Shown: positions 9,123-19,917 of the stretch, in pieces
Layout: each line of letters opens with the position of its first letter
How positions within the stretch are numbered: position 1 is the first letter of the stretch
Source: Thermomicrobiales bacterium
GTDB taxonomy: Bacteria > Chloroflexota > Chloroflexia > Thermomicrobiales > UBA6265
DNA length: 19,917 nt
NCBI GenBank assembly: GCA_025928535.1
Contig: JAICJJ010000003.1
Coordinates: 1 to 19,917, forward strand
Direction of reading: 5' to 3'
Position numbers and translations under genes: made by a program
The notes under the pieces: generated by a model
What the model was told of the DNA's origin: nothing
Databases searched by the model: none
What the model saw: only the letters and a program-made list of their open reading frames with translations

Positions 9123-9512
9123 TTACTTGCAGTTCCCGTTCTTGCAGTTGAAGTTGCTGCAGCAATCGCTGCTCTTGTTGCAGGAATCGCCCTTCTTGCC
9201 GCACTTGCAACTGCCATTTTTGCACGTGCCGGAACAGCAATCGCTGTTCTTCTTGCAGGAATTGCCGTTGCCGCCGCATTTGCAACTGCCGTTCTTGCAA
9301 GTATTGGAGCAGCAATCCTTGTTCTTGCTGCAATTCGAGCCGCTCTTCTTGCAGTTGTTGTTGCCCGCTGGCTGGGCCGTCTGCGCCGCGGCCAGGTCAG
9401 GCGCGAGCCGCGTCGCCAGCCCGAGCCCGGCGGCGGCCGCGAATTTGAGCACGCCGCGCCGCGACGGCGCGGCCATCGACCGCGCAAGTTCATCGAAACG
9501 TCGATCATCCAT
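9123..9512 (-). CDS. Tat-exported protein with three cystine-knot-like repeats
   Basis: This 129-residue protein begins with an acidic/basic leader and a clear twin-arginine motif, SRRGVLK (17-23), followed by a hydrophobic AAAAGLGLA stretch and a likely cleavage near AAA-Q44. The mature part holds three tandem modules (54-77, 79-102, 104-128), each C-x6-C-x5-CC-x3/4-C-x4-C, with 18 cysteines in all; other residues are mostly Lys, Asn, Ser and Gly. The spacing is that of inhibitor cystine knot (knottin) domains and would give three disulfides per module. Tat export implies folding before transport or a need for extracytoplasmic oxidation. ATG 9512 has GGGAG 9 bases upstream. Comparable small Cys-repeat proteins are frequent in Thermomicrobiales; the function is unknown. 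Confidence 0.85.
   Translation of the reverse strand: MDDRRFDELARSMAAPSRRGVLKFAAAAGLGLATRLAPDLAAAQTAQPAGNNNCKKSGSNCSKNKDCCSNTCKNGSCKCGGNGNSCKKNSDCCSGTCKNGSCKCGKKGDSCNKSSDCCSNFNCKNGNCK
9129..9353 (-). repeat. Three tandem ~75-bp coding repeats
   Basis: Units at 9282-9353, 9207-9278 and 9129-9203 each encode one six-cysteine module. Units start 75 bp apart. The Lys-Asn-Gly-Ser/Asn-Cys-Lys segment is nearly identical in all, pointing to tandem duplication. The third unit has one extra residue between the vicinal cysteines and the fifth cysteine. Confidence 0.8.
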
Positions 9513-9757: not shown

Positions 9758-10813
9758 TCAGGCGCCGCGATGGGGCGACGACCCGGCCTTCTTTGAATGG
9801 CTCTTGCCGTGGCGGCCATGCGAATGCTTGCCGGCGCCTGACGCTTTGTGCGACGGCGAGGAACGGCCGCGCGCGGCGGAGCCTTGGCGGGCGGCCGTTG
9901 TGGACGTGGTCGCCTGACTCTGCCCGCCATGCTTCGCGCCGCCAGCATTTCCTGACCCAGGGTGGCTCCCCGGGGCGCCAGCGGCGGCTTTGCCGCTGGC
10001 GGACGAATTGCAGCCGCCCGTCGGGGCCGGCTGGACATCGACCAATTCGGCCACTTCCTTGCCGCCCTTGACGATCTCCGAGCGAACGAAACCGATGCAG
10101 GGCGCGTATTGCTTCCGCTCGACGACGCCCGGATCGAGCCGGCTGGTCTCCTGTGTCTCGAGCGCGTTGTCAAATGAGCCGAAGGGAACGGTGACGGTGG
10201 TCGAGAGATTCAGCACCTTCGCCACGTCCGCTGCCTGCCGGCGTGAGCACTCCTGCCGGTAGACGTCGCCGACGTGCGAGGTCGCCTCCATCACGATGCC
10301 GGGGAGCGCGCCCTTGACGCCCGCTTCCCACGACCCCTTCGTGCTGACGACCTTGCCCTTCTTGAGCGACTTGGTGTCTTCGCCGAAGTACCAGACGTTG
10401 CCCGCGCTGTCCTGGGCGTACCAGTCGAGCGTGTCTTCGACGGGCGTCCCATCCGGCAACGAGGAGACGTCATGCACGACGACGGTGTCGACACCGAGGA
10501 TCGTCTTCGTATCGGTAGTGACCTCGACCACGTCGTTTTGCGTCTTGTTGCCGTTCACCGCTTCGCGATACGTGAACGTCGTGCCCGGCACAAGCGGCAT
10601 GAACGGATTGTCGATCGTGGTGGAAAATTGATCCGCTCCCGGAAACAGAGTGCACGATGGCTGTTTCCGCGCCGGGCTTGATTGCGCTGCCTGGCCGGTC
10701 GCTGGCGAGCGCGGTCGCGACTTCGCCAGCGTCACACCGGGAGCCGCCACGAGCAAGAGGATGACGAGCAGTCCCTCGGTTATCGGAAACGACGCCTTCG
10801 GCCAACGCTCCAT
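9758..10813 (-). CDS. Secreted protein with basic His/Lys/Gly/Ser tail
   Basis: This 351-residue protein has a signal peptide (FPITEGLLVILLLVAAPGVTLA, residues 9-30). A conserved extracellular core (about 52-270) has segments such as NPFMPLVPGTTFTYRE, DTLDWYAQDSAGNVWYFGED, GSWEAGVKGALPGIVM and TVPFGSFDNALETQE. This core is that of a widespread uncharacterised family of secreted bacterial proteins. Four cysteines lie in the mature part. The last ~80 residues are low-complexity and positively charged (GKHSHGRHGKSHSKKAG), suited to binding polyanions, cell wall or metals. ATG 10813 is chosen over TTG 10843 and ATG 10837 because AAAGGA lies 9 bases before it. The start is 136 bases downstream of an ATGAAG direct repeat, so control by the local two-component system is inferred. 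Confidence 0.8.
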   Translation of the reverse strand: MERWPKASFPITEGLLVILLLVAAPGVTLAKSRPRSPATGQAAQSSPARKQPSCTLFPGADQFSTTIDNPFMPLVPGTTFTYREAVNGNKTQNDVVEVTTDTKTILGVDTVVVHDVSSLPDGTPVEDTLDWYAQDSAGNVWYFGEDTKSLKKGKVVSTKGSWEAGVKGALPGIVMEATSHVGDVYRQECSRRQAADVAKVLNLSTTVTVPFGSFDNALETQETSRLDPGVVERKQYAPCIGFVRSEIVKGGKEVAELVDVQPAPTGGCNSSASGKAAAGAPGSHPGSGNAGGAKHGGQSQATTSTTAARQGSAARGRSSPSHKASGAGKHSHGRHGKSHSKKAGSSPHRGA

Positions 10814-10932
10814 CGCGCCACATCCTTTCCGCTCCATCGCCAAAAACGCCCAGCAGCGCCCGACCCTGCCCGGCCGGAGCGTGCGTCGGCTTGTGCGCCA
10901 TCGTCAAAAGCCGGCGCCGCTGGATTGTCTCG

Positions 10933-10965
10933 ACCGTAGGCGACGTCGATGAAGTTCGGATGAAG
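10933..10965 (-). promoter_or_regulatory. ATGAAG x2 box (11-bp step) with -10-like hexamer
   Basis: On the plus strand ATGAAG occurs at 10949-10954 and 10960-10965, an 11-bp step. On the minus strand the proximal repeat is followed, exactly 10 bp later, by TACGGT (10933-10938). This matches the architecture of the other boxes in the window and lies 120-152 bases upstream of the secreted-protein start at 10813. It also lies upstream of the divergent PPOX gene. OmpR-family regulators bind direct repeats with this period. Confidence 0.55.
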
Positions 10966-11082
10966 GGCAAAGCGACTGTCAGCCAGGAAAACGAGATCGA
11001 TGCGGGCGGAATTGCATTGCCGTGCGGTCGCATCCTGGTTGAAGGAAAACGAAATCACGGTTCGCGCGCAAAGGAGCAAGGC

Positions 11083-12237
11083 GTGGGCATGGTCACCGAG
11101 GAAATGCGCCGGCTGATCGACGAGCGGCGGCTCGGTTTCGTGGCCACCGTTTGCCCCGACGGCACGCCCGATCGAGCGCCCAAGGGCAGGCTCGCCGTCC
11201 GGGACAACGATCGGCTAATCTTCGCCGTCATCGGATCGCCGGGCACGATCGCCAATCTGCGCGCCAACCCGGCCATCGCGGTGAATGTCGTCGATCCGTT
11301 CACGCGGCGCGGCGATCGCTTCAGAGGCGCCGGCGGCGCGTTGACGGCGGGAGCGGCATTCGACGCCGGGGTGGCCTTCTTCCGTGCCCGCGGCTGCCTC
11401 GCGCCGATCCGCGCGATCGTGCTCGTCGCCGCCACGCAAGGCCGGCCCGTCATCTCCCCGGCCTATGCGATGGGACTGACCGAGGCCGCGCCGGCGCCCT
11501 GGGGAGCCCACCACCGTGCGCTGATGCGGGGCGCCGGCGCGGCGTCATCGCCGACAGCCGACGCCGCCTGCATCCTGTCGCCCCGACTATTGGGGCGCCG
11601 TCGCGACCTCGGACTTGGTGAGCATGTAGGCGTCCACCAGTTGCTGCTTTTCGCGCGCCGGCACGTGATAGTAGTCGAGCGCGCGGACGATCTCCGCGCC
11701 AACTTCGTCGAATTCTTCCGGCGTCAGATGAAAACGTTGATGGGCGTCGTGCAGCGGCAGCCCGGTGTAGGTGAAGGGGCCGCCGGCGAGCGCGGCAATC
11801 CAGATCGTCCGCATGAACTTCAGGCCCGGCAAGCGGGTCGGCGCTTCCGTCTGGTTCCATGCCTTCAACGCCGGATTCTGGTTGAGCTTCGGGTTGACGA
11901 TGATCGCGTCGCTGAAGCGATCGACGACCGCGGCGATGGCGAAGATGCCGCCGAGTCGGTCGTACAGGCTCTGCTCCGATGCGCCAGTCGGCGTCGAGTC
12001 GTCGGCCGCCAGCGCCGTCTGTTGCAACAGCGCGCGCGCCGCCGCAAAACCCGCGAGGGCGCCGGCGCCCTTGGTCACCGTCCGTCGATCCACCGGCCTG
12101 TCCATGGCACGCTCCTCGGTTCGGAACCGCTCGTCGCAGCCGGGCTCCGTCGCCCGACATTGGCCAAGACGTCCAAATCCGAGCAAGATATTCCCGCGCC
12201 GGCGGAGCGAATGGACCAGCGTTCGCTGACCTCCTGA
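11083..12237 (+). CDS. PPOX-family (pyridoxamine 5'-phosphate oxidase-like) protein with abnormal 3' extension
   Basis: The first ~150 codons match small flavin-binding PPOX-fold proteins: EEMRRLIDERRLGFVATV, then CPDGTPDRAPKGRLAV, SPGTIANLRANPAIAVNVVDPF and a C-terminal APIRAIVLVAA segment. Such proteins bind FMN or F420-like cofactors as split-barrel dimers and usually end at about 150 residues. GTG 11083 lies 6 bases after AAGGAG; ATG 11089 is the alternative. The expected stop near 11540 is absent, and the frame stays open to 12237, running antisense through the whole globin gene. The last ~230 codons look like antisense shadow. A frameshift near 11540 would end the protein at 11621 or 11627 in the other frames. 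The 5' part is well supported; the 3' end is doubtful. Confidence 0.6.
   Translation: MGMVTEEMRRLIDERRLGFVATVCPDGTPDRAPKGRLAVRDNDRLIFAVIGSPGTIANLRANPAIAVNVVDPFTRRGDRFRGAGGALTAGAAFDAGVAFFRARGCLAPIRAIVLVAATQGRPVISPAYAMGLTEAAPAPWGAHHRALMRGAGAASSPTADAACILSPRLLGRRRDLGLGEHVGVHQLLLFARRHVIVVERADDLRANFVEFFRRQMKTLMGVVQRQPGVGEGAAGERGNPDRPHELQARQAGRRFRLVPCLQRRILVELRVDDDRVAEAIDDRGDGEDAAESVVQALLRCASRRRVVGRQRRLLQQRARRRKTREGAGALGHRPSIHRPVHGTLLGSEPLVAAGLRRPTLAKTSKSEQDIPAPAERMDQRSLTS
11587..12105 (-). CDS. Tat-exported truncated (2/2) globin
   Basis: This 172-residue protein carries a Tat-like signal, DRRTVTKGAGALAG (6-19) plus ARALLQQTALAAD, ahead of a bacterial truncated-globin domain (about 46-165). The domain starts SLYDRLGGIFAIAAVVDRF. 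It contains the GGP-x-YTG turn (108-115) and the proximal heme histidine H122 in LHDAHQRFHLTPEEFDEV. The usual distal B10 tyrosine seems replaced (F64-S65 region), as in the planctomycete/proteobacterial branch. Heme binding is expected; peroxide, NO or O2 chemistry outside the membrane is inferred. ATG 12105 has GAGGAGCG just upstream, while upstream in-frame starts lack a site. The start overlaps the end of the preceding same-strand gene by 31 bases, so co-transcription is likely. The plus-strand PPOX frame runs antisense through it. Confidence 0.85.
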   Translation of the reverse strand: MDRPVDRRTVTKGAGALAGFAAARALLQQTALAADDSTPTGASEQSLYDRLGGIFAIAAVVDRFSDAIIVNPKLNQNPALKAWNQTEAPTRLPGLKFMRTIWIAALAGGPFTYTGLPLHDAHQRFHLTPEEFDEVGAEIVRALDYYHVPAREKQQLVDAYMLTKSEVATAPQ

Positions 12238-12605
12238 TCGACCCGTTCGCGAAGCGCGAGGCTCGAAGCGTCGACACGACGGGCCAGACGCACGGCGCGC
12301 CGTACTCGTTCGATGCGGCGGATTCGGCCTTGAACGTTGACAATCTCGGCCGGCAGGAGGAAGAGACGCCCCGGTTGATCGTCAACGACGCGTTCGTAGT
12401 CCGCCAACTGGGCCATCGACATGTCCATGGCGACGATCAAGAGGGCGCGCCCTCGCGCGTTTCGGGCGTTCCTCGGCAAATGGTCCGCGAGCCACACGCC
12501 GGTCCAGCCTCCAAGCGCCGGATGCGTTCCCGTCAGATCGCGAAAGCCCGATTCCAGAATCCGTAGCGCGGCCGCCTGGGTTGTTCGGTGATAGAGATCG
12601 ATCAT
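12075..12605 (-). CDS. Small uncharacterised protein (LYHRTT...ILESGF family)
   Basis: This 176-residue protein begins MIDLYHRTTQAAALRILESGFRD, a pattern of small proteins with an ADP-ribosyltransferase-like start (Tyr-His-x-Thr-Thr, then a helix and Gly-Phe). GVWLADHLP and LADYERVVDDQPGRLFLLPAEIVN follow, conserved in a widespread uncharacterised family. Homology seems to end near residue 115; the last ~60 residues are Arg/Ser-rich and may be extension. Enzyme activity is not shown. ATG 12605 has GGAG 7 bases upstream. It is followed by the globin with a 31-base overlap and lies 130 bases after the Asn/Gln-rich Tat protein on the same strand. These three may be one transcript driven from the box at 13236-13279. 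Confidence 0.65.
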   Translation of the reverse strand: MIDLYHRTTQAAALRILESGFRDLTGTHPALGGWTGVWLADHLPRNARNARGRALLIVAMDMSMAQLADYERVVDDQPGRLFLLPAEIVNVQGRIRRIERVRRAVRLARRVDASSLALRERVDQEVSERWSIRSAGAGISCSDLDVLANVGRRSPAATSGSEPRSVPWTGRWIDGR

Positions 12606-12735
12606 CCACTTGCTCCGGCCCGGAACGATGTCATGCGCCTCGACGGCATTGGGCTGCGGGGAGTCGGCCGCGTTGCGACGGGCGACGCGCGACGGGCGGC
12701 CGACCGCCATTTGCCGTGGCTACGGAGACGGCGGG

Positions 12736-13143
12736 TCAGCGACGCCGCGCGTTGCCGTGACGGCGCCGGCGCCCGCCGCGTTTCGACCGATGCGGGCTCG
12801 TCGCCTGGCCGCTTCCGCTGGCGCCGGGCGCGCCAGTTCTGCTGCCTGGGGCGCAGCCGACGTTGTCGCCCTGGTTGTCGCCTTGCTGCTGACAATCGAC
12901 GCCGTCGATTTGCTCGTCGGAGCCGGAGGTCTCCCCGTCCGTCTCATTGCCGGATGCGGAGGCTCCGCTGGAGGTGTTGGCGCGACGCCCGTGTTGCCGC
13001 TGAGCGGCGGCCGTCAGCCGATCGCTCCCCAGGCAGGCGGCGGCCAATGCGCTCCCGGCCCAGACCGCCAGCCAGCGCCGGCTGACGGCCCGATCGAATC
13101 GGCCGCCCGCCGTTTCACCTCGCTCCATCGTCACGTCGCTCAT
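12736..13143 (-). CDS. Tat-type exported Asn/Gln/Gly-rich protein with Cys pair
   Basis: This 135-residue protein has a twin-arginine motif, SRRWLAV (21-27), before WAGSALAAAC. C37 could form a weak lipobox (LAAAC), making a Tat lipoprotein possible. The mature part is Ser/Gly/Asn/Asp-rich with one cysteine-bounded segment, C84-QQQGDNQGDNVG-C97, and ends in an Arg-rich tail (GGRRRRHGNARRR). The motif resembles SC...QGND...NQGNDAGC in the broken gene at 16933-17135, so the two are probably related. ATG 13143 has GGAGG 5 bases upstream; the open frame before it is shadow. An 11-bp-step triple repeat at 13252-13279 lies upstream. The function is unknown. Confidence 0.7.
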   Translation of the reverse strand: MSDVTMERGETAGGRFDRAVSRRWLAVWAGSALAAACLGSDRLTAAAQRQHGRRANTSSGASASGNETDGETSGSDEQIDGVDCQQQGDNQGDNVGCAPGSRTGAPGASGSGQATSPHRSKRGGRRRRHGNARRR

Positions 13144-13235
13144 CTGAACCTCCGTTCGCTGGCGGCTGGATGCAGGGGCCCCGCCTGGCCCGCGCCCTGT
13201 TCGACGCCCCGGCGAAATGGAGCCGGGGCGTTTCA

Positions 13236-13279
13236 ACGACATGGCATTGGCGTGAATTCGACGTGAAGCGTGCATGAAC
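13236..13279 (-). promoter_or_regulatory. Triple 11-bp-step box (GTGAAT, GTGAAG, ATGAAC) with -10-like hexamer
   Basis: Three near-copies of ATGAAG start at 13252, 13263 and 13274, each exactly 11 bp apart. On the minus strand TGTCGT (13236-13241) follows 10 bp after the proximal copy, as in the sister boxes. It lies 93-136 bases upstream of the Tat-type protein start at 13143. Confidence 0.5.
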
Positions 13280-13372
13280 GCGGCTCCGTCTCCACGCCAT
13301 TTCCTCGCGCCGCCGCCGACCGTTGCGGCGCGCGTCGTCCCACGCCAAGACCGCCTCCCGCCGCGCACGACC

Positions 13373-13570
13373 TCACCCGGCCATGTCATAGAGCAGCATC
13401 GCTCCGAGGCAACCGAGCGCCAGCATGGCGACCGCGATGAGATCGACCGCGGCGTCGTCCTCGGCGTCGGCCAAGGCCATGAGGATGACCCAGGCCAGCG
13501 GCCCGAGGACGAGCAGGGCGAGGCTTGCGCCCAGCATGGGCAAAACGACGGGGCTGGCGGGGTGACGCAT
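13373..13570 (-). CDS. 65-residue two-helix membrane protein
   Basis: This very small protein has two likely transmembrane helices, about 8-33 (VVLPMLGASLALLVLGPLAW...) and 42-62 (VDLIAVAMLALGCLGAMLLYD). They are joined by an acidic turn, DAEDDAAVD, with both ends probably on the same side. ATG 13570 is preceded by GGAGGACATCG, a strong ribosome site, which argues that it is real despite its size. It lies between the COG4705 gene and the Tat-type Asn/Gln-rich gene on the same strand. No family is recognised. Confidence 0.7.
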   Translation of the reverse strand: MRHPASPVVLPMLGASLALLVLGPLAWVILMALADAEDDAAVDLIAVAMLALGCLGAMLLYDMAG

Positions 13571-13768
13571 CGATGTCCTCCGGCGGTTCTGGCGCGGCTC
13601 GGAACACGCTGACTTGCCAGGCAGGCCGCGGTTTTGACAACGGCCGAAACTGGTTGACGGCCGATAGCGCGTGCAAATTGTCTGCGGTTGTCATCGTTCG
13701 CCATCATCTCGCCTGCTGCTGCGTTGCGCTCGCTTCGATCCGTGGCCGGCGCGCGTCGACCGACGACG

Positions 13769-14644
13769 CTAATCCGACGCGGCGCTGGCAGGGAGCCGAG
13801 GCGCGGCGGGCGCGCGGTCGGCCGCGGCATCCGCCGTCGCCGAGTCCGCCCGGGAGATGGACAGAAAGACGACGACAAGCAGAATCGCGCCGAGGAAGAG
13901 CGCGCTGGTCAGCGGGGCGCCGAGGCCAAGACCGCCATCCGCGCGCGCCTGCGCCAACAAGTCGCCCAGCGAGGCGCCGAGCGGCCGCGTCAGGATGTAG
14001 GCAAGCCAAAAGGCGACGACCGCATTGAGCCCGAAGCCGAGATGGGCGGCGGCCACGATCCCGATGAGGGCCGCGAAGAGGAGGGCCGACAGTGGATAGC
14101 CGACGTCGAGCCGCTCCGCCGTCAGATCGCCAGCCGCCGTGCCCAAGGCAAAGGTGAACAGAATCGCGAGCCAGTAGAAGGCTTCGCGTCGGCCAGTGAA
14201 GATCGTGTGGATCGAGAGCGTTCGTTCGCTGGCGAACCAGGCCGCAAATGTCGCGGCCAGCGCCAGGCCGAAGACGAGCGTCGTCGTCACCAGCGAGACG
14301 CCGAGATTGTCCGTCAGATTGTCGGTGATCAGCGTGCCGACGATGCTCAGCAGCACGACGGCGAGCCAGTAGATGGCGGGCACATAGCGGCGCGCCCGAA
14401 ATTGGACCAGCAGGACCAGCAGCAACAGCGCGCCCATTGCCCAGGTCGTGACAGTCAACCCCAGATTCAGGTTCACATTGAGAAAGTCCGCCGCCGTTTC
14501 GCCGACGGTCGTGCACAAGACCTTGATGAGCCAGAAGTAGATCGTCACCTCCGGGACCTTGCTCAACATCTGCCGAGCGGCCGAACGAACCGGGCTCAGG
14601 GACGCCCCGGCCGTCGTTGATCCGACGTTGCTTCCCCGCGTCAT
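13769..14644 (-). CDS. COG4705-type uncharacterised eight-helix membrane protein
   Basis: This 291-residue integral membrane protein has about eight helices, starting near 32, 62, 88, 117, 154, 183, 207 and 245. It matches the uncharacterised COG4705 family (MLSKVPEVTIYFWLIKVL opening, ERTLSIHTIFTGRREAFYWLAILFTFALGTAAGD). Polar Gly/Thr/Asp motifs recur in every second helix: TVGETAAD (46-53), GTLITDNLTD (103-112), GTAAGDL (168-174) and RPLGASLGD (220-228). This implies an internally repeated fold with buried acids, as in cation carriers; the transport role is inference. ATG 14644 has GGAGG 5 bases upstream. A 9-bp palindrome (14720-14740) and an ATGAAG box (14800-14827) lie in its upstream region. 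The C-tail is Ala/Asp-rich. Confidence 0.85.
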   Translation of the reverse strand: MTRGSNVGSTTAGASLSPVRSAARQMLSKVPEVTIYFWLIKVLCTTVGETAADFLNVNLNLGLTVTTWAMGALLLLVLLVQFRARRYVPAIYWLAVVLLSIVGTLITDNLTDNLGVSLVTTTLVFGLALAATFAAWFASERTLSIHTIFTGRREAFYWLAILFTFALGTAAGDLTAERLDVGYPLSALLFAALIGIVAAAHLGFGLNAVVAFWLAYILTRPLGASLGDLLAQARADGGLGLGAPLTSALFLGAILLVVVFLSISRADSATADAAADRAPAAPRLPASAASD

Positions 14645-14719
14645 CCTGTCCTCCAAACGCGGCGGTTCAGCGTTCCTGAGCCGCCATGGCGCGCGGCCGG
14701 CGCCGCGCCGCAAACAAGC

Positions 14720-14740
14720 GGTCCGCACACCGTGCGGACC
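14720..14740 (-). promoter_or_regulatory. 9-bp perfect inverted repeat, possible operator or leader hairpin
   Basis: GGTCCGCAC (14720-14728) and GTGCGGACC (14732-14740) are perfect complements separated by 3 bases, 76-96 bases upstream of the COG4705 start. It lies downstream of the -10-like hexamer at 14784-14789, so it would be in the transcript: either a leader hairpin or a dimer-type operator acting as a roadblock. Confidence 0.45.
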
Positions 14741-14783
14741 GGCTCCAGGGGGATCGGCGTTCCGGGCGCCGACCCGGAGGCCG

Positions 14784-14827
14784 ACGGTAGAGGGCGGAGA
14801 TGAAGTCCTGTTTAGGCCAGGATGAAG
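14784..14827 (-). promoter_or_regulatory. ATGAAG x2 box (22-bp step) with -10-like hexamer
   Basis: ATGAAG occurs at 14800-14805 and 14822-14827, exactly two 11-bp steps apart, with a degenerate middle position at 14811. On the minus strand TACCGT (14784-14789) follows 10 bp after the proximal copy, almost the same as the TACGGT of the box at 10933-10965. It lies 140-183 bases upstream of the COG4705 gene. Confidence 0.5.
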
Positions 14828-15169
14828 CCGCACGGTGGCGGACGATCGGGAAGCGGGCCGATGTCCGACGGCGATCGGCTGGCGACGGCGCCCCAGTCAG
14901 CGCATCGTCAGCGCCAGACGCGCGCCGATGGCGGACGCGGTTGCCGCAACCTTCGGCCGTCTGCGAGCGACGGCGGTCCGATGGATTTCGGGGAACGCAG
15001 GGGAGCGTGGCTGGCAAGAATCGACCGCGCGGCGTTCACGCGATGGCGCGGCTGGACAATCGGGGCCGCAACCGCCGATCCAGGCGGTGTATTCCCGGCC
15101 GTGTTGCCGGGATCGTCGCCCACGCCGCCACTATGGCAGATCGTTCGGGCCGCAAGACGCGCGGCGCGC

Positions 15170-15787
15170 TCAGCCGTGATAGCGCGGATCGAGCCGGCGC
15201 GAGCGACCGCGCATCCGGCCGCTTTCCTCCAGGGCGCGTACGCTCGCCGACGCCACCCGCCACTGCCCGGAGACCTTCCAGCCGTGCAATTGCGCGGTCA
15301 GCAGCCACATCTGGATCCGGCCCACCGGGACCCCCAGCCGCGCCGCCGCTTCCGTCGTGGTCAGGCCGTGCTCCGGCGCCATCCCGAGGATGAACTGGCT
15401 GGGATCAACCCGGAGGGCTTGCGCGAGGGCGCGCACGGTCCGGGCCAGGGGCGCGCGGTGGCCTCGCTCCAGATTCGAGATCGCCTCGTGCGTCAAGCCG
15501 CTGCGCGCCGCCAACTCCAGTTGCGTCAACCCGGCCGCTTCGCGCGCCTGGCGCAGCCGCCAACCGGCCCGCCGCGGCGCGCGCCGCCAGGCCGGCACAA
15601 CCGTTCCGGCATGCATCTGCGCTTGCGCCAGGACCAGGTCGTCAAGCCGCACCCGCCGTCGGCCGCCGCTCCGGTCGGCGGGCAGCGCGCCCGTCGCGAT
15701 CCAGCCGCCGACCGTCCAGCGCGACAGGCCGAGCCGGTCGGCCGCTTCGGTTACTGTGAGCGATTCCTTGGCGCGTATGTCAGTCAT
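15170..15787 (-). CDS. Transcription regulator with three DNA-binding modules (HTH_17 - XRE - HTH_17)
   Basis: This 205-residue protein has three modules. First is an excisionase/MerR-like winged HTH (about 9-58: LTVTEAADRLGLSRWTVGGW, then GGRRRVRLDDL). Second is a Cro/C1-type XRE domain (about 76-133: LRQAREAAGLTQLELAARSG, LTHEAISNLERG). Third is another excisionase-like HTH (about 140-188: GLTTTEAAARLGVPVGRIQM, then SGQWRVASASV). Modules 1 and 3 align with each other, suggesting duplication around an XRE insert. ATG 15787 has GGAGG 4 bases upstream; the longer frame to 15940 has no site. No ligand or partner domain is present. A role as local repressor or nucleoid-type organiser is inference; its targets are unknown. 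Confidence 0.85.
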   Translation of the reverse strand: MTDIRAKESLTVTEAADRLGLSRWTVGGWIATGALPADRSGGRRRVRLDDLVLAQAQMHAGTVVPAWRRAPRRAGWRLRQAREAAGLTQLELAARSGLTHEAISNLERGHRAPLARTVRALAQALRVDPSQFILGMAPEHGLTTTEAAARLGVPVGRIQMWLLTAQLHGWKVSGQWRVASASVRALEESGRMRGRSRRLDPRYHG

Positions 15788-15918
15788 GACGCCTCCCGCA
15801 CGGTGAGGGCGGCGGGCGGCCGCCGCTGCCCTGAGACGATGCGCGGCGGCGGCCGTCTGCGTCAAGCGCCATTGGCGCCCGACCTCGGCGATGAACGTGC
15901 CCGATGGCCGCCGCTGGG

Positions 15919-16818
15919 CTACGGCCAGCCGCCCCGCCACGCATTGTGCGCCTTGGCGCCGCTTGCCGCCGCCGCGGGCTCGTTCCCAGCTCGCGTGCCG
16001 GCGGTCGATGCGCCCGACATGCCGCCGCCTCCCGCCGCATGGTCCCGCGTCTGGCCGCCAGTCTGGCGCTCCGATCCGGACGGCTGTTCGCCCGATTCAG
16101 CGGGGCCGTGCGCCGCCCCGCCCTGGGCGGAGATGAGCCAGGCCAGGCCCGGCGGCTCTGGCGCGAGCGGGGCCAGACTGGTGGCGACGATCGTCTTCAA
16201 TGCTTCCGCCTGGCCATACGACAGGCCGCCTTGCGTCTGGCGCGTGTCGATCAGCGCCATCAGCGCCTCGCGAATGGCGGCGTCGATCGCGTCGGCGCCC
16301 GACGGCGAGCCGCCGGACCGAGCGCCGCCGGACGGCGACATCTGCGCGCTTGCGCCGCGTTCGCCCGATTGCGCGCCGGTCTGGCCCATCGCTCGGCCGC
16401 TCTGGCTGACGGAGGACTTTCCTCGTTCCTGACTGTTGCGGCCCCGCCCGTCGGCAGCCGCACCGCTGGCGGCGCGCTCGCCCGCGCTTGCGGAGCCGCC
16501 AGGTTGGTTCTCCGCTGAACCACCCTGGTTCTGGCTGTTCCTGGATTCACCGCCCTCGGCCGGCGCGATGCCGGCTGGCGCCATCGATCCCAATTGCTGG
16601 GCGAGCGCCGCGGTGAAGGCGGTGTAGAACGCCGCGTGGAGTTGCGTGCGTTCGTCGAGCGGCTGGCCGGGCTCCGACGTTGACGACGCGGATCCTTCCG
16701 GCGGTCGCGGGTGCGCCACGGCGGACGGCGCGCCGCCGGTCGCCGCCGTCAGGCCGAAACCGACGCCGGCCGCGCCGAGCGTCGTGAGAAAGCGCTTGCG
16801 ATCGAGCCGTCCAGACAT
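15919..16818 (-). CDS. Exported Ser/Gly/Gln-rich low-complexity protein
   Basis: This 299-residue protein has a Tat-like N-terminus, LDRKRFLTTLGAAGVGFGLTA (5-25), using the Lys-Arg variant of the twin-arginine pair; export should be checked. The mature part has no cysteine. Two helical patches, around 52-76 (ERTQLHAAFYTAFTAALAQQ) and 175-222 (DAIDAAIREALMALID, LKTIVATSLAPLAPEPPGL), are embedded in long Ser/Gly/Gln/Ala-rich linkers likely to be disordered. ATG 16818 has AGGAGG 6 bases upstream. It lies 115 bases after the broken small gene at 16933-17135 and may share its promoter (box at 17198-17230). No family is recognised; a surface or envelope role is only inferred. Confidence 0.7.
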   Translation of the reverse strand: MSGRLDRKRFLTTLGAAGVGFGLTAATGGAPSAVAHPRPPEGSASSTSEPGQPLDERTQLHAAFYTAFTAALAQQLGSMAPAGIAPAEGGESRNSQNQGGSAENQPGGSASAGERAASGAAADGRGRNSQERGKSSVSQSGRAMGQTGAQSGERGASAQMSPSGGARSGGSPSGADAIDAAIREALMALIDTRQTQGGLSYGQAEALKTIVATSLAPLAPEPPGLAWLISAQGGAAHGPAESGEQPSGSERQTGGQTRDHAAGGGGMSGASTAGTRAGNEPAAAASGAKAHNAWRGGWP

Positions 16819-16932
16819 GTGAGGCCTCCTGTGCTGGTCGGGCGGACGCGGCCAACGTCAGTCGCTGCCCGGCGTCCGCCGCCGGCCCGCCGCACGATGC
16901 ATGCCGGTCCGCGCGACAGACAGCCGCCACGG

Positions 16933-17135
16933 TCAGCAACCGGCATCATTGCCCTGGTTTTCACCGGTTTCGTTGTCGGCCGCTCTGCCATCGTTGCCCT
17001 GCATCGAGCAGGACTGTCTCGCGCGGTCGGAGTGAAGGCGCGCGCCATGGCCGATCCAGGCTCGACGCCGAGACCGAACCCGCCGCCGACCAGCGGGACG
17101 AGCACAAAGAACAGGCGCGCGATTCGTATTGGCAG
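16933..17135 (-). pseudogene. Frame-disrupted small secreted Cys/Asn/Gly protein
   Basis: One minus-strand frame reads like a signal peptide, RIARLFFVLVPLVGGGFGLG...PGSAMARA. The next frame reads SCSMQGNDGRAADNETGENQ followed by GNDAGC and a stop at 16933, resembling the C-QQQGDNQGDNVG-C segment of the gene at 12736-13143. Joining them needs one extra base near 17035, and no ATG/GTG with a ribosome site opens the first frame. Either a small gene has been lost by mutation or the assembly has an indel. An ATGAAG box lies upstream at 17198-17230. Confidence 0.4.
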
Positions 17136-17197
17136 ACCTCACATCCGTGCCACCGTTCGTTTCATCGCCGAACGGGCCGATCCCGCTGGCGATTCCC

Positions 17198-17230
17198 ATG
17201 GTCGGTGGCCGCCATGAAGTTGCGATGAAG
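17198..17230 (-). promoter_or_regulatory. ATGAAG x2 box (11-bp step) with -10-like hexamer
   Basis: ATGAAG occurs at 17214-17219 and 17225-17230, 11 bp apart. GACCAT on the minus strand (17198-17203) lies 10 bp past the proximal copy. It is placed to drive the broken small gene (16933-17135) and possibly the Ser/Gly-rich protein beyond it. It sits just after the histidine kinase stop (17285), so this group has its own control site. Confidence 0.5.
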
Positions 17231-17284
17231 CCGCCTCGAAACGCTTTGTCGAGCGACGGCGGCGAGAAAAGTTGACGGCGACGA

Positions 17285-18784
17285 TCACCGGCGCGACGGC
17301 GAGGACAGACGCTCCGCGGGCGTGCCCGACGCGTCCCGACCGCGCCGCAACATCGACCGCCGCCCGCGGTCCGTGTCGCTCGTCGCGCCAGGCGCAGCGG
17401 GGAGCGCCATCTCGACATGGGCGCCGTGACCGGGTCGGCTGTTGAGCAGGATCGTTCCTCCGTGCGCCTCGGCGATGGCGCGGCAGATGGCAAGGCCCAG
17501 CCCGGCTCCCCCGCTGGCGCGCGTCCGCCCGACATCGACCCGGTAGAAGCGGTCGAAAACCCGTGCCTGATGTTCGATGGGAATGCCATGGCCGGTGTCG
17601 CTCACCCAGAGGCGAGCGGACATGTCCACGCGGCGGCAGCCGACGGTCACGACGCCGCCCGGCGGCGTATGGGCCACCGCGTTGGCGATCAGGTTGACGA
17701 GCACCTGCACCAGCAAATCTTCGTCGGCGACCAGGGGCGTGGCGACGGATTCGTCGCGCAGCGCCACGCCGGCGTCGTCGGCGAACGGCCGGTATTGCTC
17801 CAGCGTGGCGGCGATCGTCTCCGCCAGGTCGAACGGCGCGCGCTCGATCGGAAGTCGGCCGGCGTCGGCGCGCGCCAGGCTCAGCAGACTGGCGACCAGC
17901 CCGGTCATCCGTTCCAGATCCCCGTCGAGGTCGCGCAACGCTTCCCGGTACTCCTCGGGCGACCGTGGGCGCGTCAACGCCAGATCGATCTGGGAGCGCA
18001 TCAGACTGAGCGGCGTCCGCAACTCGTGCGCGGCGTCGCCGGTAAATCGACGCTGCCGCTCGAACGCGTCTTCGATGCGAGCCAACATGGCGTCGAAGGT
18101 GCGCGCGAGGCGGCCAAGTTCGTCGTTCGGCAGATCGAGATCGAGCCGGGCGTCGAGGTCGCGCGCGTCGATGTCGGCGGCCAGATCGGTGATGGCGGCG
18201 ACCGGCGCCAGCGCCCGGCCGGCGAGGAAGTAGCCGCCGGCGACGGCGACCAGCAGCGCCAACGGCGCCAGCAGGCCAAGCGTGGTGGCGAACTCGTTCA
18301 GGATGTCGTCGAGGTCTTGCCGATCCAGACCGACCTGCAGCACGCCGACCACATCCCCGGAGTCGCCATTGCGCCGCACCGGCAAGGTGACGATCCGGAG
18401 CGATTCGTTGTCGCCGACCGCCGCCGAATCGATGGTGGTTTGTCCGGCGAACGCCGCGGCGACGGCCTGGCGATCGAGCGGAACGCTGCCCAACGCGCTC
18501 CCGTTGTCGGCCCGCACGGCGCCGCGCGCGTCGAGCAGGCGGAGAAAATACTCGCCCGCCTGCTCCTCGACGGCTTGGGCGGCGAGGTCGGGAACGCCGT
18601 TGCGCACCTGCACGGTCGCCAGCGTGATCGCGGCCTGGCTCGTCAACTTGTCGTCGAAGTCGGCGTAAAGATGCTCGCGCAAACTGACGACGAGGATGAT
18701 GCCGACGAGCGCCAGGGTGGCGGCGAGCAGCGCCGCATACCAGAGGGTCAGCCGCAAGCGGACCGGCAAGCGGAATCCGCTCAT
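17285..18784 (-). CDS. Two-component sensor histidine kinase
   Basis: This 499-residue membrane kinase has a first transmembrane helix (about 13-35), an extracytoplasmic sensor region (about 36-165) and a second helix (about 167-188). A HAMP domain follows (about 189-241, RALAPVAAITDLAADIDARD). The HisKA domain carries the phospho-accepting H253 in DAAHELRTPLS. The HATPase_c domain has the N-box around N368 (NLIANAVAHTP), G1 SDTGHGIP (395-402), F-box FDRFYR (410-415) and G2 GGAGLGLAI (425-433). All kinase motifs look intact. Its ATG at 18784 overlaps the response-regulator stop by ATGA, so translation is coupled and the pair is cognate. The sensor region has no recognised ligand fold. The last ~30 residues are Arg/Ser-rich. 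Confidence 0.93.
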   Translation of the reverse strand: MSGFRLPVRLRLTLWYAALLAATLALVGIILVVSLREHLYADFDDKLTSQAAITLATVQVRNGVPDLAAQAVEEQAGEYFLRLLDARGAVRADNGSALGSVPLDRQAVAAAFAGQTTIDSAAVGDNESLRIVTLPVRRNGDSGDVVGVLQVGLDRQDLDDILNEFATTLGLLAPLALLVAVAGGYFLAGRALAPVAAITDLAADIDARDLDARLDLDLPNDELGRLARTFDAMLARIEDAFERQRRFTGDAAHELRTPLSLMRSQIDLALTRPRSPEEYREALRDLDGDLERMTGLVASLLSLARADAGRLPIERAPFDLAETIAATLEQYRPFADDAGVALRDESVATPLVADEDLLVQVLVNLIANAVAHTPPGGVVTVGCRRVDMSARLWVSDTGHGIPIEHQARVFDRFYRVDVGRTRASGGAGLGLAICRAIAEAHGGTILLNSRPGHGAHVEMALPAAPGATSDTDRGRRSMLRRGRDASGTPAERLSSPSRR

Positions 18785-19455
18785 CGCCTAGACGCGAGCC
18801 GGTACCCGGCTCCGCGCACCGTCTGAATCAGCACGCCGGGATAGGGGTCGTCGAGTTTGCGGCGGATCTGGCGAATGTGAACGTCGATCACGTTGGTCAC
18901 GTTCGGAAAGTCGTAGTCCCAGACATGCTCGGCGATCATCGTGCGGGTCAGCACCCGGCCGGGATGGCGCATCAGGTATTCCAGAATGCGGAACTCCTTG
19001 TTCGGCAATTGGAGTTCGGTCTCGCCTTTCCAGACCCGGCGCGTGGCGGGGTCGAGCCGCACGTCCGCCGCAATGAGCAGCGTATCCACGGTCTCGGGCG
19101 GGCGGCGGCCCAACGCCCGCAGCCGCGCGACCAATTCGGCGAAGGCAAAGGGTTTCAGGAGATAGTCGTCGGCGCCGCTGTCGAGGCCGGCGACGCGATC
19201 GGCGACGGCGTCGCGCGCCGTGAGGAGCAGAATCGGCAGTTGCGCCCGCCGCCGCCGCAGCCGGCGACAGACTTCGAAGCCGTCGATGCCGGGCAGCATG
19301 ACATCGAGCACGAGCGCGTCATACTCGCCGACATCGACCCACTCGAGCGCCTCTTCGCCGGAACCGACGAGATCGACCGCGTGCCCCTCCTCGATGAGCC
19401 CGCGGCGAAGCAGCGCCGCCAGCCGGGGTTCGTCTTCGACCACCAGAATGCGCAT
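18781..19455 (-). CDS. OmpR/PhoB-family response regulator
   Basis: This 224-residue transcription factor has a receiver domain (1-115) with the acidic pocket E7-D8, phosphorylation site D51 (ALVLDVMLPGIDGFE), T79 and K101 (YLLKPF). A winged-helix C-terminal domain (about 126-222) contains LPNKEFRILEYLMRHPGRVL and VIDVHIRQIRRKLDDP, ending TVRGAGYRLA. ATG 19455 gives the canonical MRILVVEDEP start with GAGG 8 bases before it; the frame to 19563 is upstream extension. It is first in an operon with the kinase. Two 11-bp-step ATGAAG repeats overlap its promoter region, so autoregulation is likely, and the same box recurs at four other loci in the window. Confidence 0.95.
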   Translation of the reverse strand: MRILVVEDEPRLAALLRRGLIEEGHAVDLVGSGEEALEWVDVGEYDALVLDVMLPGIDGFEVCRRLRRRRAQLPILLLTARDAVADRVAGLDSGADDYLLKPFAFAELVARLRALGRRPPETVDTLLIAADVRLDPATRRVWKGETELQLPNKEFRILEYLMRHPGRVLTRTMIAEHVWDYDFPNVTNVIDVHIRQIRRKLDDPYPGVLIQTVRGAGYRLASRR

Positions 19456-19495
19456 CCGCTTCGCCTCTCTGACGCCGTCCGAGCATGATCCAGCC

Positions 19496-19531
19496 AAAAT
19501 GCTGCGCCGTGGAAATGAAGTCAAAATGAAG
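19496..19531 (-). promoter_or_regulatory. Response-regulator promoter with ATGAAG x2 box
   Basis: ATGAAGTC occurs at 19515-19522 and 19526-19533, 11 bp apart, 60-78 bases upstream of the response-regulator start. On the minus strand a -35-like TTGACT (19519-19524) overlaps the box and is followed after 17 bp by CATTTT (19496-19501). The alternative hexamer at the spacing seen in the sister boxes is CAGCAT (19499-19504). Confidence 0.6.
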
Positions 19532-19672
19532 TCCGTCGCGCTGAACCGACCGCGCGCCTTCATTTTGCCCGCATCGCGACGACATCGCGCCAGCGGCTTT
19601 CTGCGGACTCGCCGCCGGCCGATCTCACGCCGTTTCGCCCATCGACGCGCGCTGGCGAATCGCTGCTCATGA

Positions 19673-19705
19673 CTTCATCTCGACTTCATCGCGGCTCCGC
19701 ATGCT
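19673..19705 (+). promoter_or_regulatory. Oppositely oriented ATGAAG box pointing to the right-edge gene
   Basis: CTTCAT (reverse complement of ATGAAG) occurs at 19673-19678 and 19684-19689, 11 bp apart, within GACTTCAT units. On the plus strand CATGCT (19700-19705) follows exactly 10 bp later. The orientation suggests a plus-strand promoter toward the gene starting at 19845. Confidence 0.45.
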
Positions 19706-19844: not shown

Positions 19845-19917
19845 ATGCCCCGCGCGCTTCCCGTCGATCTCCGGCAAACGATCGTCGAACGCCATCTGGC
19901 CGGCATGACGCTGGTCG
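19845..19917 (+). CDS. Helix-turn-helix / transposase-like protein, 5' end only
   Basis: The window ends after 24 codons. ATG 19845 is preceded by AAGGAG with 8-base spacing, a strong ribosome site. The start, PRALPVDLRQTIVERHLAG followed by MTLV, resembles the N-terminal helix-turn-helix of IS630-type transposases and related short HTH proteins. It may be the left end of an insertion element, but no terminal repeat can be verified. A possible -10 (TTATAC, 19796-19801) lies 43 bases upstream. Confidence 0.5.
   Translation, partial: MPRALPVDLRQTIVERHLAGMTLV

Follow-up and report, generated by a model that had tools for sequence, protein, structure and literature searches.

A stretch of 19,917 nt from contig JAICJJ010000003.1 of a Thermomicrobiales bacterium (assembly GCA_025928535.1), hereafter the window, carries the genes of a two-component system formed by a response regulator and a sensor histidine kinase. 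In the same stretch lie genes for an exported protein with a basic tail (gene B) and for a membrane protein of the DUF347 family, and a set of short direct repeats of the hexamer ATGAAG, here called boxes, which are candidate operators of the regulator (Table 1). Genomes and loci of relatives are cited by their handles (G and L numbers, respectively).

Table 1. Genes, boxes and related features of the window
Feature	Position	Strand	Remarks
Response regulator gene, OmpR/PhoB family, 224 amino acids	18781..19455	-	Response_reg and Trans_reg_C
Sensor histidine kinase gene, 499 amino acids	17285..18784	-	HAMP, HisKA, HATPase_c
Gene B, exported protein with basic tail	9758..10843	-	start codon uncertain; homologues by tblastn and profile
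DUF347 / COG4705 membrane protein	13769..14644	-	PF03988, four repeats
Doubtful small open reading frame after kinase	16930..17181	-	Cys/Asn tail in this frame, signal-like stretch in another
Box before response regulator gene	19515..19531	-	CTTCATTTTGACTTCAT; -10-like CAGCAT at 19499-19504
Divergent box, same intergenic region as 19515 box	19673..19689	+	-10-like CATGCT at 19700-19705
Box directly 3' of kinase gene	17214..17230	-	-10-like GACCAT at 17198-17203
Box before gene B	10949..10965	-	-10 TACGGT at 10933-10938
Probable box before DUF347	14800..14827	-	CTTCAT-N16-CTTCAT, weak middle CCTAAA; -10 TACCGT at 14784-14789
Weak triple, judged not a box	13252..13279	-	GTTCAT/CTTCAC/ATTCAC on sense strand

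The repeats and their phase with the -10 element

A pattern search of the window finds the exact pair ATGAAG-N5-ATGAAG four times, at 10949, 17214 and 19515 as written on the plus strand and at 19673 on the minus strand; the sense-strand form of the repeat unit is CTTCAT-N5-CTTCAT. With up to two mismatches there are six matches, the four exact ones included, where 0.48 would be expected, and none of 200 shuffles reached six. The first-pass annotation of this DNA had listed such repeats at these and two further places, all between genes. For the four exact pairs both statements hold, as all four lie outside any gene with domain or homologue support, and some are crossed by mechanical open reading frames. 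The pair at 14800/14822 is weaker, with two exact hexamers at a 22-bp step and TACCGT 10 bp past the promoter-proximal one; read by eye it has one mismatch to the relaxed pattern, and the pattern scan itself did not match it. The triple at 13252/13263/13274 (GTGAAT/GTGAAG/ATGAAC as written), in which only the pair at 13263 falls within two mismatches, is judged not to be a box. Its mismatches (at least two) and the lack of a phased -10 element speak against it as an operator, and the gene downstream of it at 12736-13143 is not supported as a target. A search of the window against Rfam gave nothing above threshold.

Genome-wide counts rest on a pattern search of the draft, which has 3,389,021 bases (3.39 Mb) in 646 contigs and is 64% complete. 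Such a scan had been named as a check on the regulon, and its outcome is favourable: the draft holds four exact repeats, all within the window, and no match to the reversed control pattern. Four copies with one mismatch lie elsewhere. The composite of repeat and phased -10 element likewise has four exact matches, all in the window, with six one-mismatch copies elsewhere and none of the control. Ten one-mismatch copies lie outside the window, nine of them within open frames of at least 90 codons, although in GC-rich DNA this coding location is weak evidence. In the window genome and 40 relatives (41 genomes) the exact pair occurs 17 times and the reversed control five times by hand count. Hexamers are common, and these single-mismatch copies could be cited as a sign that a short word has gathered beside a regulator by chance, but that explanation is contradicted by the shuffles, the reversed pattern, the other genomes and the other regulators, and its probability is negligible.

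The spacing to the -10 element was examined in 19 boxes, 4 from the window and 15 from relatives, picked by their position near a regulator, a kinase or a possible target. All 19 are direct repeats. A hexamer of the form nAnnnT begins exactly 10 bp past the second half-site in 18 of them, the single unphased box being L092:14946, and TAnnnT does so in eight; at the other 49 offsets nAnnnT was met in 38 of 931 instances. The binomial value for this phase, 1.8e-24, assumes independent boxes, which orthologues are not. The 17 exact repeats from the 41 genomes were collected blind to position. Eight are phased, namely the four of the window and those in G006, G009, G010 and G021 (contig 105), and all eight adjoin the regulator, the kinase or gene B. 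The other nine are unphased, and tblastn of the window proteins at these nine finds only a distant kinase (34%) at two overlapping matches in G031.

As the -10-like hexamer is fixed 10 bp downstream, the repeat would cover the -35 region, a placement known from activator promoters of the PhoP type; in PhoP architecture I, too, a direct repeat stands one helical turn before the -10 element and in the same orientation. A box over the -35 region could also occlude polymerase, and OmpR-family regulators are capable of both activation and repression. The same boxes might then be operators at which the regulator represses by blocking the -35 region until a signal releases it or lowers its affinity. 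The constant spacing of 10 bp and the weakness of the -10 elements in GC-rich promoters fit activation instead, as in PhoP architecture I, and repression is distinctly improbable.

Distribution of the boxes and candidate targets

The regulator has PF00072 and PF00486 above cut-off, as expected of the OmpR/PhoB family, and its closest relatives (81%) are in G006 and G009. The OmpR-family regulon that the first-pass annotation had predicted is supported, and the geometry of the repeats and their conservation would fit a head-to-tail dimer on direct repeats about 11 bp apart. That annotation had also predicted autoregulation, on which a scan of the 300 bp upstream of each regulator gene, on both strands, bears directly; five loci found through the box and two duplicates were excluded. 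The exact composite, with TT(C/A)AT as first half-site, precedes 9 of 15 regulators of at least 55% identity (the window's own included) and none of the 101 below 55%, the shuffle means being 0.00 and 0.05, and this distribution argues for autoregulation. On the sense strand only, the count is 8 of 15 because the box in G017 faces away from the regulator. Strict TTCAT gives 5/15 and 0/101, and one mismatch gives 10/15 and 1/101. The six regulators that lack an exact composite are L103 with one mismatch, L102 and L093 with two, and L089, L094 and L106 with four to six. G010 has no close regulator orthologue (about 50%).

In a tree of 116 regulators, whose bootstrap had not settled, 10 of the 11 bearers of the exact composite fall in one clade of 14 rows (support 93/94); two of the 11, L197 and L198, were found through the box. 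L090 bears the composite outside the clade, and four rows within it have no box. Contig JAUYEF010000281.1 (L102) is titled Bacillota and its regulator groups with that of L103, a metagenome-assembled genome (MAG) from Chloroflexi; the L102 MAG may be mislabelled or mixed. The box-bearing relatives are probably all Chloroflexota.

A scan of 158 genomes of the class with TTCAT-N6-TTCAT-N11-A-N3-T is independent of the hand-chosen loci. It gave 108 matches versus 16 for the reversed pattern, a control tally counted by eye, and the free positions of the 108 show a TAtaaT-like -10 hexamer (T 60/108, T 52, A 48). Thirty of the matches came with loci, and more than half of these 30 fall in some open frame of at least 60 codons on either strand. 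The downstream protein was scanned against Pfam in 11 of the 30: two are PepSY proteins (L196, L213), two GT2 (L202, L210), and one each PMT (L192), phosphoesterase (L207), ABC (L203) and pyruvate:ferredoxin oxidoreductase (L212); L206 stayed below its cut-off, and L214 and L221 had no match, L221 being a homologue of gene B. The boxes before the GT2 and PMT-type glycosyltransferases are reminiscent of lipid-carrier sugar transfer. At position 1501 of L207, L208 and L209, which come from three genomes within a single genus, similar genes are preceded by phased TTCAT boxes whose -10 element is TATACT; the L207 gene encodes a calcineurin-like phosphoesterase.

Boxes before glycosyltransferase, PMT, ABC-transporter, phosphoesterase and pyruvate:ferredoxin oxidoreductase genes would suit reading by some other transcription factor, or a promoter element in general use across the class. 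The 3-kb loci concerned have no match to the regulator or kinase, which counts against the adjacent regulator as the reader of the box. Yet the box tracks the regulator clade, with 0/101 among other regulators, and four exact copies in a 3.39-Mb draft are far too few for a general promoter; we regard a reader other than this regulator as highly improbable.

In the relatives, boxes are conserved upstream of orthologues, as the first-pass annotation would have it, before regulators, gene B and PepSY genes. Across 25 loci, some of them selected by previous searches for the box, for gene B or for PepSY, 33 boxes match the relaxed pattern, or 31 once two double counts are removed, and four loci (L091 to L094) have no box. 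By hand assignment 28 of the 31 phased boxes precede one of six gene families (12 regulator, 8 PepSY, 5 gene B, and 1 each DUF347, PAP2 and DedA-UppP); the three unassigned are the post-kinase and divergent boxes of the window and L089:10329.

Gene B, which had been named as a basic-tailed secreted target, has no Pfam or NCBIfam match. By profile it is present in 14 of 158 genomes (19 matches). A phased box stands at 4 of 18 gene B loci with the strict pattern and at 5 with the relaxed one; L264 was dropped for having 8 bp of upstream sequence, and L279 and L281 were tested and have no box. The phased box and its conservation support gene B as a target of the regulator. In G006, G010 and G029 the gene B box and the best regulator match are on different contigs; the regulon may thus extend past a single locus, although drafts do not prove distance. 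A relative of gene B from L103 has at least 1131 homologues among 8000 candidates scored, and none of the 120 homologues listed has a Pfam domain. The AlphaFold2 model of this relative (P0001) is all-beta, with a mean pLDDT (predicted local distance difference test) of 90.5. Foldseek found no match to it with E up to 0.001; the best rows, all weak, are nitrobindin, LmcA and DUF1849 (beta-barrel and LolA-like), so that a lipid-binding role for gene B is a guess.

The DUF347 protein, another of the targets first proposed, is a probable one. Its 14800 box is plausible, being phased and having a 22-bp step. DUF347 is rare, occurring in 4 of 158 genomes, in two of them beside this system, and in G104 and G120 the only candidate boxes at the DUF347 genes have two and three mismatches. 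The scattered occurrence of the family (window 13769-14644, L057:6964-7899, L227 and L237) suggests horizontal transfer.

The position directly after the kinase is also occupied by a box in G009, G021, L102 and L103. From there the box leads to a PepSY gene and a gene B homologue in G009 and L103, to a gene B homologue in L102, to DUF347 in G021 and, as a relaxed box, to a PepSY gene in G036. For the window, a small protein (16930-17181) had been named at this place; the phased box at 17214 stands, but the reading frame is doubtful, and the region may have decayed or contain an assembly error. The small proteins gave no informative NCBIfam or Pfam match. A PepSY gene as the target of the window's post-kinase box was considered and rejected, with 0 PepSY matches in a window genome that is 64% complete.

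The PepSY search covered 15 genomes chosen for holding the system or box, and its 26 matches merge to 19 genes. The relaxed box precedes 9 of the 11 small exported PepSY genes versus none of the 8 others, a grouping made by hand; tblastn places a PepSY homologue near the system in L053, L055, L088, L092, L094, L103, L283 and L284. The divergent box in G021 leads to a DedA/VTT gene and UppP/BacA, the box in G017 faces a PAP2 phosphatase, and in G029 a box is followed by PepSY and then PAP2, about 9 kb from the system.

The divergent box of the window at 19673 points toward the contig end at 19917. At that end (19845-19917, plus strand) an open reading frame starts that has a weak transposase helix-turn-helix match below cut-off, and a mobile element may have displaced the target of this box. 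Two further minus-strand genes are of note. One (9123-9512) encodes an exported protein rich in Cys, in which DCC-type motifs recur and which by eye resembles a knottin; it has no Pfam or NCBIfam match, and no box was found before it. The other (11587-12186) encodes a bacterial-like globin (PF01152) with, by eye, an apparent export leader, which is unusual for a globin.

Weighing the evidence, and a proposed mechanism

Judged from the genome comparisons, the operator system appears to be real, autoregulated and spread over several families of the class; the rarity and conservation of the box, its -10 phase and the families of its targets were computed directly. The boxes are very probably the operators of the adjacent OmpR/PhoB regulator, which would be an autoregulated activator of envelope genes. 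The first-pass annotation was correct in its central point, and two of the targets it named are mistaken or unproven. Several points weigh on the other side. Orthologous boxes are not independent samples, and three of the four -10 hexamers in the window lack the leading T. Six of 15 regulators have no exact phased box, 13 of 18 gene B loci have no box, and the one-mismatch pattern also matches one of the 101 distant regulators. The box label needs four changes on the tree (versus 10.7 in shuffles), and the box in G017 is oriented toward PAP2. The data had already been seen when the 55% cut, the relaxation to TT[AC]A and the grouping of PepSY genes were chosen. G031 holds an unexplained exact triple of CTTCAT with 11-bp steps (L095:15243-15270), convergent and unphased, about 280 bp from the 34% kinase. 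Finally, a genome only 64% complete can hide further regulon members.

The family models raise the prospect of a conventional two-component system for heavy metals (Cop/Cus/Czc), responding to Cu, Ag, Zn or the like. The kinase passes TIGR01386, the heavy metal sensor kinase model (306.9 versus a cut-off of 292.55 bits), and the best model of the regulator is TIGR01387; DUF347 has been linked to lead tolerance in Frankia (PMC4531530), and G144 has an RND efflux pump gene (PF00873, apparently split over two frames, L092:10321-13784) that lies about 1 kb away from the system, behind a further gene with a receiver domain, and that slightly raises the likelihood of such a system. The regulator, however, is under the TIGR01387 cut-off (247.1 versus 279.2 bits), and the sensor domains of 12 kinases share no invariant or almost invariant His or Cys column. 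In the Cop/Czc-like class the AgrR box takes the form of an inverted 6-4-6 repeat (PMC7380067), whereas the 19 boxes here are direct and do not form a Cop/Agr-type operator, and the G144 locus has no phased box. The regulator cut-off, the direct operator and the absence of a His/Cys column disfavour an orthodox soft-metal (Cop/Cus) system in particular, and a heavy-metal system of any of these kinds is unlikely.

For an autoregulated activator the following mechanism can be proposed. The phosphorylated regulator dimer would bind two TT(C/A)AT half-sites, 11 bp apart and head to tail, at the place of the -35 element, and the bound dimer would recruit RNA polymerase to the -10 element fixed 10 bp downstream. 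The regulator would activate its own operon and a few envelope genes, namely gene B and probably DUF347, and in relatives also exported PepSY proteins, the PAP2 phosphatase and the DedA-UppP operon. The PepSY protein would probably feed back on the kinase, by analogy with DbfQ. The signal might be envelope damage or a hard cation, and the output lipid-carrier recycling and cation tolerance.

The substrates of UppP, PAP2 and DedA are lipid carriers or lipid phosphates, and DedA proteins are reportedly undecaprenyl-phosphate flippases. In Frankia, DUF347 and UppP share lead-induced operons (PMC4531530). These roles and operons point to a response to envelope or cation stress that would maintain the supply of lipid carrier, a purpose that we offer tentatively. 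The 32-bp composite of two half-sites and a phased -10 element finds targets at low background, also on other contigs, so that the regulon can be read from draft genomes. It ties DUF347 and gene B, two families without known function, to PAP2, UppP, DedA and PepSY.

Comparison with known systems

The regulon is most like those of ColRS, PmrAB and BqsRS, and it probably serves lipid-carrier or cation functions at the envelope. The PmrA box is a direct repeat of hexamers. PhoP boxes are hexamers separated by N5 that lie 12 nt before the -10 element in architecture I promoters (PMC3335776). The present boxes share with the PmrAB/PhoPQ type the hexamer direct repeat, the N5 spacer and the 11-bp step, but differ in half-sites and targets, and the regulator falls short of the PmrA equivalog NF007928 (191.1 versus 330 bits).

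BqsR of Pseudomonas aeruginosa is an activator that reads TTAAG-N6-TTAAG, in repeat arrays, and spacers of 5 or 7 bp abolish its activity (PMC4682146); BqsRS has the PepSY neighbours PA2658/PA2659 (PMC12714742). The repeat layout is the same here, and PepSY neighbours recur in relatives of the window, whereas BqsR has its own half-site, 432 genomic sites with up to two mutations and a response to Fe(II) (PMC4682146). PepSY genes are found beside two-component systems more than 60-fold more often than by chance, and in DbfQRS of Vibrio cholerae the small PepSY protein DbfQ binds the kinase and favours its phosphatase activity, while damage to the membrane switches the pathway on (PMC12714742). 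The likeness to DbfQRS would lie in the PepSY genes near kinase and regulator in relatives; the regulon differs, and the window genome has no detectable PepSY. UipRS-UipA of Microbacterium is likewise a two-component system next to a PepSY protein in soil bacteria, although UipA is a tandem-PepSY uranium binder (PMC8963506), and the parts of that account drawn on here name no operator for UipR.

ColRS of Pseudomonas putida has a footprinted consensus, YYNA(C/G)NNYTTTTT(C/G)AC, and its targets include the PAP2 gene PP0900 and many membrane genes (PMC2689224). By our own reading, three of the seven sites in Table 1 of that account can be written as TTCAC-N6-TTCAC, with the same step as here, and a PAP2 gene follows a phased box in G017 and a PepSY gene in G029. 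The differences are the half-site (TTCAC with a T-tract, against TTCAT or TTAAT), the phylum and the neighbours, as the parts of the ColRS account drawn on here name no PepSY, gene B or DUF347 (PMC2689224).

It is conceivable, if rather unlikely, that ColRS, BqsRS, PmrAB and the present system are members of a single ancient class of two-component systems, linked to PepSY and PAP2 and spread across phyla, whose sites read TTMAN-N6-TTMAN and whose task is to protect the polyprenyl-phosphate carrier, with DUF347 and gene B as unrecognised parts of the cycle. DUF347 would then be a carrier-lipid transporter, or a carrier-linked cation transporter, and cooperate with UppP and DedA, while the gene B product would be an exported beta-barrel that binds lipid. 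Searches of the open-licence literature turned up no Chloroflexota regulator of this kind with a mapped site, and within their reach the description of an undescribed module is fair for the lineage; the principle matches ColRS, PmrAB, BqsRS and DbfQRS. The kind of system is known, and what look new are its half-site and its set of targets.

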